From Desulfobacteraceae bacterium (GTDB lineage Bacteria > Desulfobacterota > Desulfobacteria > Desulfobacterales > JAABTS01): a stretch of 64,000 nt of DNA. A program made the position numbers and the translations under genes. The stretch's first letter is position 1. Each line of letters opens with the position of its first letter. Positions 42,222 to 51,442 of this stretch are shown piece by piece. Location of the stretch: contig JAABTS010000004.1 of NCBI GenBank assembly GCA_011389735.1, positions 1 to 64,000 on the forward strand. The letters are read 5' to 3'. The notes beneath the pieces were generated by a model. That model did no database searches and was not told the origin of the DNA. It worked only from the letters and a program-made list of their open reading frames with translations.

Positions 42222-42540
42222 GTGGTAGGGCCGTCCCTACGCGGCGGCCGTTCAAGGGGCATTCATAAAACCGCATGAATTTTGGGGGTGGCCAATCCGT
42301 TATGGGCCCGAGAATATACCTGTGGTAGGGCCGTCCCTACGCGGCGACCGTTCAAGGGGCATTCATAACACCGCATGGATTTTGGGGATGGCCAACCCGT
42401 TATGGGCCCGAATATACCTGTGGTAGGGCCGTCCCTACGCGGCGGCCGTTCAGGGGGCATTCATAACACCGCATGGATTTTGGGGGTGGTCAACCCGTTA
42501 TGGACCCGAACATACCCGCCACGTAGGGCGGGTCTACCAT
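42222..42540 (+). repeat. Tandem repeat, about 3 copies of a 98-100 bp unit
   Basis: Copies start at 42222, 42322 and 42420 with GTGGTAGGGCCGTCCCTACG, containing the palindrome GTAGGGccgtCCCTAC. They continue through CATTCATAACACCGCATG and GGTGGCCAATCCGTTATGGG. The third copy runs into a partial reverse unit ending GGGTCTACCAT next to the flaF stop. No coding frame is conserved between copies. Confidence 0.85.
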
Positions 42541-47326: not shown

Positions 47327-48386
47327 TGGAATTCGCCCGTTTTTGAAACGATTTATGTTTTTCCCGCAAGGCCTGAACCGCCAGAGCCGTCAGCACCAGG
47401 GCGCCCTGGATCACGCCGCTCAGCGACGAATCCATTTGGAGCATCATGGGAAGCTGGATACTCCCCACGTTCAAACCGGCGAACAACAGCGCAACGCCCA
47501 CGGACGCCCAAATGTTGTAGTTCGCCAGCATGACGACCAGCAGCGCCAGATATCCGTAACTTCCTGAAATAGCGGGTATTAATCGATGATACACGCCGCT
47601 GACCTGAATCGTTCCCGCAACGCCCGCAAATCCGCCTGCGAACAGCATGGCCAGAAGCATGTTCTTATCCGGGTTGAGACCGAACAACCGTGATGCGAAT
47701 GGGTTGGCGCCCACGGCTTTTAAATGGAGTCCTATTTTGGTGTAGCGCAAAATCAGTGCGGTCAAAACAACGGCGGCGACGGTCAATGAAAATCCCACGG
47801 GCGAAATCCGGAAACCTTTTAAGGAACTTAGCCATAACTCTATGGGAAACAATTCCGTGCCGCTCATGGACGCAATCCCGGGGCGTTTCCAGGGGCCGAA
47901 GATCAGCCATAAAATGAAACCCTGGGCGACAAAATTGAGTCCAAGGCCGGCGAATATTTCGTTCACGCCGCCTCTGGTTTTTAAAAAACCGGCCAGCAGC
48001 GCCCACAACCCTCCGCCCACAATTCCAGCCGGAAAAGCCGCGATTAAATACATCGTGGGATAGTCCGACGTCATTCCCCATCGCAGCGCCATAGTAGAAA
48101 AAACGGCGCCCATCATCATCTGGCCTTCGACGCCGATATTCCAGAGCCCGATTCTAAAAGTGAACAGCAATCCACAGGCGCATAGCGTCAGCGGTATCCA
48201 GGCGTTCAGTGTTTGAGCGATTTTGGTTCCCGATCCGACGGCTCCTCTGGTAATATAATAGAAGACCTCCAAAGGCGGAGCGCCGGCCGCGATAAGCACC
48301 AATGTGGTCAAGAGCGCCACGGTCGCGCCGGTCAGCACAATTCCGCCAAAAGCCGGGATGAAACGGGATATAACAGTGGATTTCAT
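47313..48386 (-). CDS. Nucleoside-type ABC transporter permease 1
   Basis: The 357-residue protein is the first permease of the pair (YufP/NupB-like). Features are LNAWIPLTLCACGLLFTFRI near 60, WNIGVEGQMMMGA near 84, and the cytoplasmic-loop motif HLKAVGANPFASRLFGLNP near 223. About nine membrane spans are predicted. ATGA overlap with the AlaX-like gene upstream and overlap with permease 2 downstream make a three-gene operon. The usual order in this transporter is binding protein, ATPase, permease, permease; here the first two are absent. Confidence 0.88.
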   Translation of the reverse strand: MKSTVISRFIPAFGGIVLTGATVALLTTLVLIAAGAPPLEVFYYITRGAVGSGTKIAQTLNAWIPLTLCACGLLFTFRIGLWNIGVEGQMMMGAVFSTMALRWGMTSDYPTMYLIAAFPAGIVGGGLWALLAGFLKTRGGVNEIFAGLGLNFVAQGFILWLIFGPWKRPGIASMSGTELFPIELWLSSLKGFRISPVGFSLTVAAVVLTALILRYTKIGLHLKAVGANPFASRLFGLNPDKNMLLAMLFAGGFAGVAGTIQVSGVYHRLIPAISGSYGYLALLVVMLANYNIWASVGVALLFAGLNVGSIQLPMMLQMDSSLSGVIQGALVLTALAVQALREKHKSFQKRANSNERI

Positions 48387-48832
48387 GTCACAGCGGGGGC
48401 GGACAGTTTAAAACGGATTCGCAAAACGGAATCTTCATGGCTAACGGAGGTAATCCGAAAAGCGCCTATCCGGCCGGTCGATGTCACATGCGGCCCGATA
48501 CACGGGCATGCGTCGTAATCTCCGATTCGAACGATCCGAATCGCCTCGCTCCCGTCGCCGGGCAATCGCCCGAGATCGAAATGCTGTACCGCCTTGTCTT
48601 TGTCGATCCATACTTCCTTTACCGGAAGGTCGGCGTCAATCGCCTGGTTGATCCGATTTTCAATTCGTTCGATTTCAGCCTGAGTTAAATTCCGGTCAAA
48701 ACGATAATCGCATTTTGATTTTTTCTTCTCGATATGCGCGCTGAAACATCTTCCGGTCTCGAACAGGTTCACCATGGTGCGGTTTAAAAGATGCTCCGCG
48801 GAATGCATTCGGGGATCCATTTGTTTTTTCAT
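48383..48832 (-). CDS. AlaX-like aminoacyl-tRNA editing domain protein
   Basis: The 149-residue protein has the zinc site of the second additional domain: HSAEHLL near residue 9 (H-x3-H) and CIGPHVTSTG near 113 (C-x3-H). The family hydrolyses mischarged tRNA-Ala or tRNA-Thr. Between lie HIEKKKSKCDYRFD and VKEVWIDKDKAVQ. It lacks the N-terminal beta barrel of long AlaX forms. The start at 48832 has only a weak GGA upstream, and an ATG at 48883 would add 17 residues. It is first in an operon with two ABC permeases, an unusual link. Confidence 0.82.
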   Translation of the reverse strand: MKKQMDPRMHSAEHLLNRTMVNLFETGRCFSAHIEKKKSKCDYRFDRNLTQAEIERIENRINQAIDADLPVKEVWIDKDKAVQHFDLGRLPGDGSEAIRIVRIGDYDACPCIGPHVTSTGRIGAFRITSVSHEDSVLRIRFKLSAPAVT

Positions 48833-48925
48833 CGAAAATCCAATATTCTTGTTTTTTTTGAACGCTGACGAATTTAATTGCAATGATGAAAATCAAACAG
48901 GCCGAAAAAAAGCAAGAAAAAAATC

Positions 48926-49054
48926 GGCGTCTTTCATAAATGCTGATAAATAGTTTACACTTCCCAAATCGGAATCGGTATCGAATTATTACGATCCCGA
49001 TCCCGATCCCGATCCCGATTTTGATGAAACTGTAAACAAGAAATGAAGGACGCC
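48926..49054. repeat. RepD element with covarying ends
   Basis: Ends GGCGTCTTTCAT and ATGAAGGACGCC differ from the copy at 10237 (GGCATC/GATGCC) at one position on each side, and pairing is kept. The arms and GATCCC repeats are otherwise almost identical. 48833-48925 is AT-rich with no gene. Confidence 0.8.
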
Positions 49055-49207: not shown

Positions 49208-51442
49208 ATGCTCGATCCGAAATTAACCAAACTATTGAAAAAAGCCGCGGGAGCGAAAACTGCGAACAAACCGGGGGCTGACTTTTACCGGAAGGTTTTC
49301 GACGCTGTGGAAAAATGTGAGGACTGCCTGATTCCGGTCCGGCCTGCGCCCGAACGGATTGCGTTAGGGCCGAACCTGATCCGTGAATCGTCGGCGCAAG
49401 AAAAACGGATACTGTATGCGGCTCCGGAAAAATCCCTGACCATGTACCGCCTTTTTACGCTAAAATCGATTTTGGAAATCAGCGCTACGACGATCATTAC
49501 CCAATCGAGGCGGGAGGTTCATTCCGATTCGCGGCTGACCGTTCGTTCCTTCGAAGCCCTGGCCGCCGATCTTCCGGATTGTTCCGATTTCGCGGACGTG
49601 TTTGTTTTCGATGATATGGAGTATATAGAGGACCGGATCCGCGGCTCGCACATCGAAGAATGTATCGCCTGCGCCCCCAAAAACGTCTCGCTGATTATGA
49701 TCATCAATCCGTATTCCAATATTGAAGCCCTGCAATCGGCTCTGGATCTAATTCGGGAAAAACCTGTGGCGGTTCTAGATCCGGAGTTTGAAAAGTCCAG
49801 GATCATCCCCGCTTTTCTATCTTCCGAATGGAACCTGCTTCCTCTGGCGGACAATCGCAGGATCGCCAATAAAACCAAACGTATTGCAAAGGATACGGAA
49901 CCGTTCCGGTCTCCGAGATCCGGAAAAACAATCAACACTCTGGCCTCGAAATTGAGAGACCATGAATTGACGCCGGCCTTGATTCTTTTGAAAATTCCCG
50001 GTCATTGCGAATCCGCGGTTGACGAATGCCGGAAAACGGTGGATCAGGCCGGCAAGGCCCTGACCGAACCGAGGGTTGCCGCACTGCTGGATCTGAACCC
50101 CGAATTGAAGGATCATTCCTATTTACCGCTTTCTCTCGCCAAACAGGCGGCGCCCTGCCATGAGGGGCAACATCCTTACTGGCGGGAGCTGGTTGAAATT
50201 TTTGTGGCGTACGGCGCCGTCGATATCGTTTTCGCCTCTCCGGAAAGCGCGGCGGATCTGTCCATCCGTTTCAAATCAGCGGTGTTCTTTGAAATCGGCC
50301 AACCCCAGGCGGACTGCGAAAACTGGATAACGCCGCTTCAAACGGACCGGATCGCCCGGCTGATGAGCGGAACCAAAACGGATCGCACGGCTCTGATGAT
50401 CGTGCCCCATACCGCGAATATCGACCTGGCGTACTATAAAGATCTGATAATTGCGCCTTATCGCCAACTGGAACCGTCGTTCGCATGTTCCGGCGCCTCC
50501 GTGCTACGGCTTCTGTCCGGCGGAGAATCGGCGGAGAAAACGCCGGTAAATTCGCTTTCATGGGCCATTCGTCCACAATGGGGCCGTTTTTGCCTGCAAT
50601 CCTTGCAAAACGGACTTCGGGAAGAACTGGAAAAAGCCCGGTGCCATGTCCATATCCTCACGGTGAGATCCCTGATCGATCTTCACCTGAAATTGACAAA
50701 GGACATCAACCGGCTTGAATATGAGCTGTCGGAAAAGAGATCGAGCGGCGGCCGTAAAAGCATTCGCCGATCCCTGGAAGACGCCGAACACGCCATGTCT
50801 ATGCTTCCGTGTGGATCGTGCCCGCATCACGATGTCTGCCATAAGCGGGGATCGAAAAAGTTCAGAGGGTTGTTGCAGGCCTTTGACGAATCCGCCGACC
50901 GTTTGAAAATGTCCGGAGCCGGCCTGGAACTCGAATTCTCACTGGCGTTGGAATGGCTTCAAGAATTCGGCATGATCGACCACAATCGTCAACCGACGAC
51001 GTTCGGACGGCTGGGCGCGAAAACCGGAATTCCGTTTCCCCAGTTTTTATGCCGGGCCCTCAAGGCCGGTAAAATACCCCTTGACGATAAACTCCGAAAA
51101 ACCGCCGTGCTAAGCGGGTTTCTCGATCCTGTCGCCGCCGGAAATCCGGATCTTCGGGACAATATCGGAGAATCCCTTGATCGAGCCGAAAAAGATTACG
51201 AAGCGTTGACGCCGGTTATCGATTCAACCCGGGAGCGGTTGTTACGATTCGGCATGGCAAAACCAGGGTATTATCTTCAAAATGTCGTTTTCATGCTTGA
51301 ATATCAGCAGACCGGCGATATCGACGCCGTAGCCGGCAGGCTGGATATTTCTATCGGCGGGGCGATTCGGTTTTTGAACATTGCGAAAATTCTGGCCGAA
51401 GTCGTAGATTCTTTTGAAACGGTTACTGTTTCTCTTTATTGA
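49208..51442 (+). CDS. Ski2/Mtr4-like helicase homologue with lost ATPase motifs
   Basis: The 744-residue protein can be aligned by eye to Ski2/Mtr4-type RNA helicases but is degenerate. Motif Ia-like KRILYAAPEKSL is at 66-77. At the DExH position it has VFVFDDMEYI (131-140). Motif IV-like DHELTPALILL and the Cys of HCESA lie near 251-270. CHEGQHPYWRELVE at 317-330 and IVFASPESAADLSI at 340-353 match the motif IVa/V region. Motif VI (Q-M-x-G-R-A-G-R) has become RLMSGTKTDRTAL near 385. No Walker A G-K-T exists. The C-terminal half has C535-G-S-C538 with C544 and a helical region. It is probably a non-ATPase scaffold or RNA-binding protein. No clear ribosome-binding site. Confidence 0.65.
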   Translation: MLDPKLTKLLKKAAGAKTANKPGADFYRKVFDAVEKCEDCLIPVRPAPERIALGPNLIRESSAQEKRILYAAPEKSLTMYRLFTLKSILEISATTIITQSRREVHSDSRLTVRSFEALAADLPDCSDFADVFVFDDMEYIEDRIRGSHIEECIACAPKNVSLIMIINPYSNIEALQSALDLIREKPVAVLDPEFEKSRIIPAFLSSEWNLLPLADNRRIANKTKRIAKDTEPFRSPRSGKTINTLASKLRDHELTPALILLKIPGHCESAVDECRKTVDQAGKALTEPRVAALLDLNPELKDHSYLPLSLAKQAAPCHEGQHPYWRELVEIFVAYGAVDIVFASPESAADLSIRFKSAVFFEIGQPQADCENWITPLQTDRIARLMSGTKTDRTALMIVPHTANIDLAYYKDLIIAPYRQLEPSFACSGASVLRLLSGGESAEKTPVNSLSWAIRPQWGRFCLQSLQNGLREELEKARCHVHILTVRSLIDLHLKLTKDINRLEYELSEKRSSGGRKSIRRSLEDAEHAMSMLPCGSCPHHDVCHKRGSKKFRGLLQAFDESADRLKMSGAGLELEFSLALEWLQEFGMIDHNRQPTTFGRLGAKTGIPFPQFLCRALKAGKIPLDDKLRKTAVLSGFLDPVAAGNPDLRDNIGESLDRAEKDYEALTPVIDSTRERLLRFGMAKPGYYLQNVVFMLEYQQTGDIDAVAGRLDISIGGAIRFLNIAKILAEVVDSFETVTVSLY

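Follow-up and report, generated by a model that had tools for sequence, protein, structure and literature searches.

A Ski2/Mtr4-like protein family with erased ATPase motifs, probably acting with CRISPR-Cas subtype III-I

Introduction

A gene of a Desulfobacteraceae bacterium raises the question of why a protein built like an RNA helicase of the Ski2/Mtr4 type should be kept when its ATPase motifs are gone. The gene lies at positions 49208-51442 on the forward (+) strand of the window, the 64,000-nucleotide stretch of contig JAABTS010000004.1 analysed here. An earlier note on this DNA had described its product as a Ski2/Mtr4-like pseudo-helicase. The identification as a member of a pseudo-helicase family rests on an intact open reading frame, profile matches to MTR4/Ski2, a fold match to Mtr4 and the loss of motifs.

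The gene and its domain layout

The reading frame starts with ATG and runs without interruption through 744 codons, as had been claimed; its product is called Q here. The landmarks named in the earlier note are all located at the expected places, namely KRILYAAPEKSL (residues 66-77), FDDMEY (134-139), PALILL (256-261), HCESA (266-270), CHEGQHPYWRE (317-327), IVFASPESAADLSI (340-353) and RLMSGTKTDRTAL (384-396). Only the spacing between PALILL and HCESA needs correction, from five residues to four.

A search of the window found no conserved immediate neighbours of the gene. Divergent from it, the minus strand at 48383-48883 encodes a small free-standing protein that carries an alanyl-tRNA editing domain (tRNA_SAD, AlaX-like), and the spacer upstream of the pseudo-helicase gene holds a short tandem repeat of tcccga units (48980-49025). 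Further away, at 42222-42444, a GC-rich repeat containing GGGCCGTCCCTACG in three spaced copies is possibly an intergenic repetitive element.

Scanned as a single sequence, Q gave no match in Pfam or PADLOC, and its sole match in NCBIfam was Hel308 (E = 0.13, residues 63-177). Against solved structures, phmmer gave E-values of 4.4e-9 for yeast Ski2 and 1e-4 for Mtr4/DOB1. When a profile was built from ten members of the family, it matched human MTR4 in three colinear regions, at 2.9e-50. The first is a RecA1-like domain (about residues 18-196; 49259-49795, + strand; 63.9 bits), the second a RecA2-like domain with the following winged-helix region (about residues 238-455; 49919-50572, + strand; 74.1 bits) and the third a DSHCT-like C-terminal helical domain (about residues 560-739; 50885-51424, + strand; 31.5 bits). 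The family member of genome G022, scanned by itself, passes the Pfam cut-off for DSHCT. An AlphaFold2 model of Q, computed from eight sequences (mean pLDDT 68, pTM 0.53), found Mtr4, FRH and Ski2 as its top Foldseek matches, with Mtr4 at 7.9e-20; its TM score is only about 0.4 because the arrangement of the domains is uncertain. The phmmer and profile scores lie well beyond chance. Q thus has the Ski2-like SF2 DExH fold, with homologous RecA1, RecA2 and DSHCT domains in order, and the relationship that the earlier note had drawn from the letters is borne out by profile and by structure.

Loss of the ATPase motifs

The same genome encodes an intact Ski2-like paralogue of 718 aa (G000:C467, L031:4106-6262) that keeps every motif (APTGSGKTW, DEAH, SAT and GRAGRRG), and alignment with it locates what Q has lost. 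At the Walker A site (49337-49366, + strand), Q reads VRPAPERIAL where the paralogue has APTGSGKTWI, with RPAPERIAL standing against APTGSGKTW. The Walker B or DExH site, assigned by alignment and position (49607-49624, + strand), reads FDDMEY against ILDEAHF, and the SAT motif reads INPYSN against SATIGN. In motif VI (50357-50395, + strand), RLMSGTKTDRTAL replaces GRAGRRGMDNIG, so that RLM-SGTKTD is aligned with GRAGRRGMD; none of the 14 family members retains the QxxGRxGR pattern. A scan of the whole protein found neither [AG]x4GK[ST] nor DExH/D, and therefore no Walker A is hidden elsewhere in Q, a finding that would have spoken against the earlier note. Its claims of a missing Walker A, a DExH box reading FDDMEY and an eroded motif VI agree with both the alignment and the scan. 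Because Walker A, DExH, SAT and the arginine finger of motif VI are all absent, Q is classed as a homologue only and not as a helicase.

The loss is shared by the 13 relatives, a point on which the earlier note had wished to see its reading examined. Motif VI is kept in none of the 14 family members and in all 42 canonical relatives, and the same counts (0/14 versus 42/42) hold for the complete motif set. The erosion is graded and has gone furthest in Q and the protein of G067. Four members (G083, G120, G149 and G285) retain a GxGK[ST] loop and may, judging by that loop, still bind ATP. In most members the Walker A position still holds a lysine (the column of Q residue 50, where 77% of the aligned rows have K), and motif II keeps its first acidic residue (the D135 column, with D in 85%). 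Such remnants are what a highly diverged but still active ATPase or helicase working with non-canonical residues might show. That reading is nevertheless very improbable, given that motif VI is gone from 14 of 14 members, that Q has neither Walker A nor the catalytic glutamate, and that members keep just 42-68 of the 170 columns that are invariant in active relatives.

The family and its conservation

Relatives of Q were sought in 1,996 genomes in total, comprising 58 related genomes and then overlapping sets from the order, class and phylum, and in one contig collection. The collection yielded no relatives when scanned with Q alone and seven loci when scanned with the family profile. The resulting family has 14 members: Q and those designated G149, G285, G031, G022, G083, G120, G034, G067, G038, G395, G392, G734 and L121. 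They were found within one phylum, L121 being a metagenome-assembled genome (MAG) labelled Pseudomonadota, and G734 comes from outside the order, from another family of that phylum. Most of the relatives that bear a name are MAGs of Desulfobacteraceae or Deltaproteobacteria. Phages, plasmids and viral contigs were searched as well and gave no match.

In the phylogenetic tree, the branch that parts all family members from all canonical helicases is long, at 2.46 changes per column, and the G038 protein attaches beside it. The inner branching order of the family is unsure because of long branches.

The frames are full-length and lack internal stops in 13 genomes. For five pairs of members, dN/dS was 0.31, 0.45, 0.20, 0.15 and 0.21, the last three being rough ratios since dS is 1.4-1.9. 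Full-length frames and ratios of 0.15-0.45 point to purifying selection, and the earlier note was right to regard the gene as selected rather than decaying. A decaying pseudogene or an annotation artefact, to which the erased motifs and the fast evolution might lead one, is contradicted already by these frames and ratios and by the invariant cysteines described below, and its probability is practically negligible. Taken together, the profile, the structure, the 13 relatives and dN/dS support the view of Q as a selected Ski2/Mtr4-like protein with its ATPase motifs erased.

Conservation is marked in the remnant of the arch stalk (50642-50839, + strand), recognised from the invariant columns of family alignment A1, which carries the motif PCGSCPHHDVCHKRG and four family-invariant cysteines, C479, C535, C538 and C544 (C-Xn-C-X2-C-X5-C). 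This set is common to the arch-bearing canonical helicases and is missing from the short paralogue. The family retains only the stalk region with these cysteines; a complete arch, with its beta-rich (KOW-like) fist, is absent. Besides the cysteines, the conserved family-specific residues are K217, K228, K301, K411 and D412.

Among canonical proteins, intact long bacterial Ski2-like helicases (for example L040:2184-4835 and L056:3885-6605) carry the C-Xn-C-X2-C-X5-C pattern in the arch stalk, possibly as a Zn or Fe-S site, and a widespread bacterial Ski2-like version of 700-740 aa has lost the whole arch. The idea that the pseudo-helicase lends its arch to an archless helicase was rejected, as G149 has the pseudo-helicase together with an 874-aa canonical helicase of arch length; many III-I genomes with an archless helicase and without the pseudo-helicase speak against it too.

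One member departs from the usual architecture. In G022 (L033:7107-11924 / L124:7974-12791, JAABSP010000012.1), the pseudo-helicase and an M1 aminopeptidase appear to share one reading frame, through either a real fusion or the loss of a stop codon, giving a protein of 1605 aa whose aminopeptidase part has intact HExxH-x18-E and GAMEN motifs. The fusion was seen in this genome only, and the close relatives G083 and G120 are without it.

Linkage to CRISPR-Cas subtype III-I genes

Subtype III-I, consisting of Cas7-11i, Cas10i and Cas6i, was introduced from sequence and named in 2025 (PMC12669027). In the literature searched, no experimental study of III-I was found. Two genomes, G067 (L055) and the separate MAG L121, hold a same-strand gene string in which the pseudo-helicase gene is the fourth, after cas7-11i, cas10i and cas6i. 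The products of the first three genes are a RAMP fusion of 949-1075 aa, a protein of 293 aa and one resembling Cas6, and the gap before the fourth gene measures about 23 bp (L055) or 180-200 bp (L121). The two genomes are divergent, yet both place the pseudo-helicase gene directly downstream of the III-I core. NCBIfam assigns the genes of the string as Cas7-11i, Cas10i and Cas6i; the copy in the window genome, for example, scores 1761 bits against a cut-off of 800.

The window genome has a complete III-I set (G000:C284, L163:8071-13124; NF049957, NF049958 and NF049959, all above cut-off), with genes of the shikimate pathway upstream of it and a gene for an ATP-grasp protein downstream. It sits on another contig than the gene for Q, out of sight of the earlier note, which was drawn from a single window. 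The pseudo-helicase gene lies within the III-I string in two genomes (L055 and L121) and is unlinked in the window genome and most others; for the unlinked cases, the association is statistical.

As for the arrays, full cas1 matches, at least four in number, occur on other contigs of the window genome, which makes arrays in trans plausible. The cas1 loci are on C148, C53, C41, C45 and C212 (four strong, one weaker and split). Weak RAMP matches on C53 as well show that the genome contains further CRISPR systems. CRISPR-like repeat arrays were seen near the III-I genes in G237 (L185:4387-4994) and at a contig end in G031 (L170:17238-17476), and next to most of the other III-I loci a simple k-mer scan gave no CRISPR array.

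Co-occurrence and co-divergence with III-I

Cas7-11i is present in 12 of the 13 genomes with the pseudo-helicase, and Cas10i in the same 12. The sole exception, G392, is 63% complete. The three control genomes that were scanned have no Cas7-11i. Among 390 genomes of the order, 24 carry Cas7-11i, and all ten genomes with the pseudo-helicase are among these (Fisher p = 1e-13, by species); counted by genus, the 20 III-I genera of 150 include eight of eight pseudo-helicase genera (p = 2e-8), although these p-values come from a sample of the order and ignore phylogeny. Congeners were compared for this reason. Those without the pseudo-helicase (five g107 and two g35 genomes) lack Cas7-11i, and three of them carry other RAMP genes. 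A link of the pseudo-helicase to CRISPR-rich genomes in general was rejected because of the congeners with other RAMP genes. Nearly all genomes are MAGs, and although faulty binning could produce or mask individual cases, it could not account for the pattern as a whole.

Pairwise distances of the pseudo-helicase correlate with those of Cas7-11i (r = 0.78, p = 0.0002 in 12 genomes; r = 0.59, p = 0.02 in the ten that remain when near copies are removed). For the eight genomes with all data, the correlation is r = 0.78 (p = 0.006) with Cas7-11i, as against r = -0.26 (p = 0.75) with the canonical helicase of the host. The pseudo-helicase therefore follows III-I and not the host. Linkage, co-occurrence and co-divergence thus make its tie to III-I well supported.

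The gene neighbourhoods of some members could point elsewhere. G149 (L051:498-4477) and G285 (L052:1678-5771) have an operon-like order of RNase III, a radical SAM protein with a Radical_SAM_C domain and the pseudo-helicase, and in G031 (L032) cysS lies directly upstream of the pseudo-helicase gene. An intact Ski2-like helicase also occurs in the pseudo-helicase genomes examined (G000, G022, G031, G034, G038, G067, G149 and G734). All this would suit a dead helicase partner in host RNA processing or decay, working with the intact paralogue, RNase III or another nuclease, in which case the association with III-I would be indirect. Most genomes with the same host genes, however, have no pseudo-helicase, its distances track Cas7-11i and not the canonical helicase, and it is missing from the congeners without III-I, so that a host role is improbable. 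The same comparisons bear on the idea of a regulator or decoy that mimics and blocks the active Ski2-like helicase of the host, sparing crRNA or target RNA from being stripped or degraded. Q shares its fold with the active paralogue, has lost the ATPase and co-occurs with a system that uses crRNA. Neither an operon nor co-divergence is shared with that paralogue, though, and many III-I genomes carry it without the pseudo-helicase, which leaves the decoy decidedly improbable.

The tie to III-I runs in one direction. The pseudo-helicase is missing from at least 14 III-I genomes within the order and from five outside it, and is therefore an optional accessory and not essential to III-I. Cas7-11i genomes without it include G114 (L175; a single 8.03-Mb contig), G037, G044, G092, G129 and G270. 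Mapped on the Cas7-11i tree, its presence takes six changes, which implies repeated loss or gain; a single clade of all carriers on that tree was rejected on the same count.

Proposed role

It is likely that Q belongs to a single Ski2-like pseudo-helicase family acting with CRISPR-Cas subtype III-I, and the family is probably an unreported non-catalytic component of this immune system. An ancestral arch-bearing Ski2-like RNA helicase would have lost the residues for binding and hydrolysing ATP while both RecA-like domains, the four-cysteine arch stalk and the DSHCT domain were retained. Such a protein presumably has no ATP cycle and no longer translocates; if it cannot run the cycle, its RNA channel, stalk and DSHCT domain would serve to hold RNA or protein. 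The old channel and the stalk might then form an ATP-independent RNA clamp or adaptor, holding for Cas6i or Cas7-11i either target RNA or pre-crRNA that comes from arrays at other genomic sites. Given the link to III-I, such a clamp or adaptor, passing one or the other RNA on to Cas6i or Cas7-11i, has, on our analysis, a little short of an even chance of being correct. A version in which the protein is an ATP-independent RNA sensor or clamp of III-I immunity that gates Cas7-11i and can couple to an output enzyme is conceivable but unlikely.

The usual Cas10 signalling has been lost in III-I, which raises the question of how this subtype is controlled and supplied with guide RNA. The pseudo-helicase is a concrete and testable candidate for a missing component.

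Comparison with known systems

The Ski2/Mtr4 (DExH, SF2) RNA helicases, including the bacterial paralogue, share with the family the order RecA1, RecA2, stalk and DSHCT. Unlike them, the pseudo-helicases have all ATPase motifs eroded and only a short stalk, lacking the arch insert of roughly 110 residues found in arch-bearing relatives. The main text of the paper that introduced III-I, with Desulfonema magnum as its example of the subtype, uses the word helicase three times, none of them about III-I, and names no helicase-like component of this subtype, to which the family would add one that is optional and mostly unlinked (PMC12669027). In the literature searched, Pfam, NCBIfam and PADLOC, no separate Ski2-like pseudo-helicase family tied to III-I was found.

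The fusion to an M1 aminopeptidase in G022 is reminiscent of the RNA-activated protease of subtype III-E. In that subtype, TPR-CHAT (Csx29) is a caspase-like protease accessory to the fused Cas7-11 effector. TPR-CHAT and the pseudo-helicase both stand beside a fused effector of the Cas7-11 type, but the latter is helicase-like and no homology between the two is claimed.

Inactive Ski2-like domains are known from eukaryotes, where the C-terminal cassette of Brr2 (PMC8220420) and Utp25 are inactive SF2/Ski2-like modules that act as scaffolds (PMC8220420, PMC9539457). The dead cassette of Brr2 is fused to an active one, whereas the pseudo-helicase is a separate protein. In bacteria, Chi is recognised in RecC and AddB by SF1 helicase domains that have been inactivated (PMC4824097). 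The suggestion of the earlier note that a dead helicase scaffold would be novel in a bacterium was therefore too broad, given RecC/AddB (PMC4824097) and Brr2 (PMC8220420), while its core, a Ski2-like protein with an erased ATPase, is supported. What appears to be undescribed so far is a bacterial dead helicase domain tied to CRISPR III-I. RecC and AddB resemble the proposed role in that a bacterial dead helicase fold is kept to hold nucleic acid (PMC4824097); they are SF1 proteins of DNA repair, whereas the family is of the SF2 Ski2-like type and has its link to a CRISPR system that targets RNA. If the proposed role is correct, a bacterial Ski2-like helicase has been turned into a non-catalytic RNA-binding part, an RNA-side parallel of RecC and AddB.
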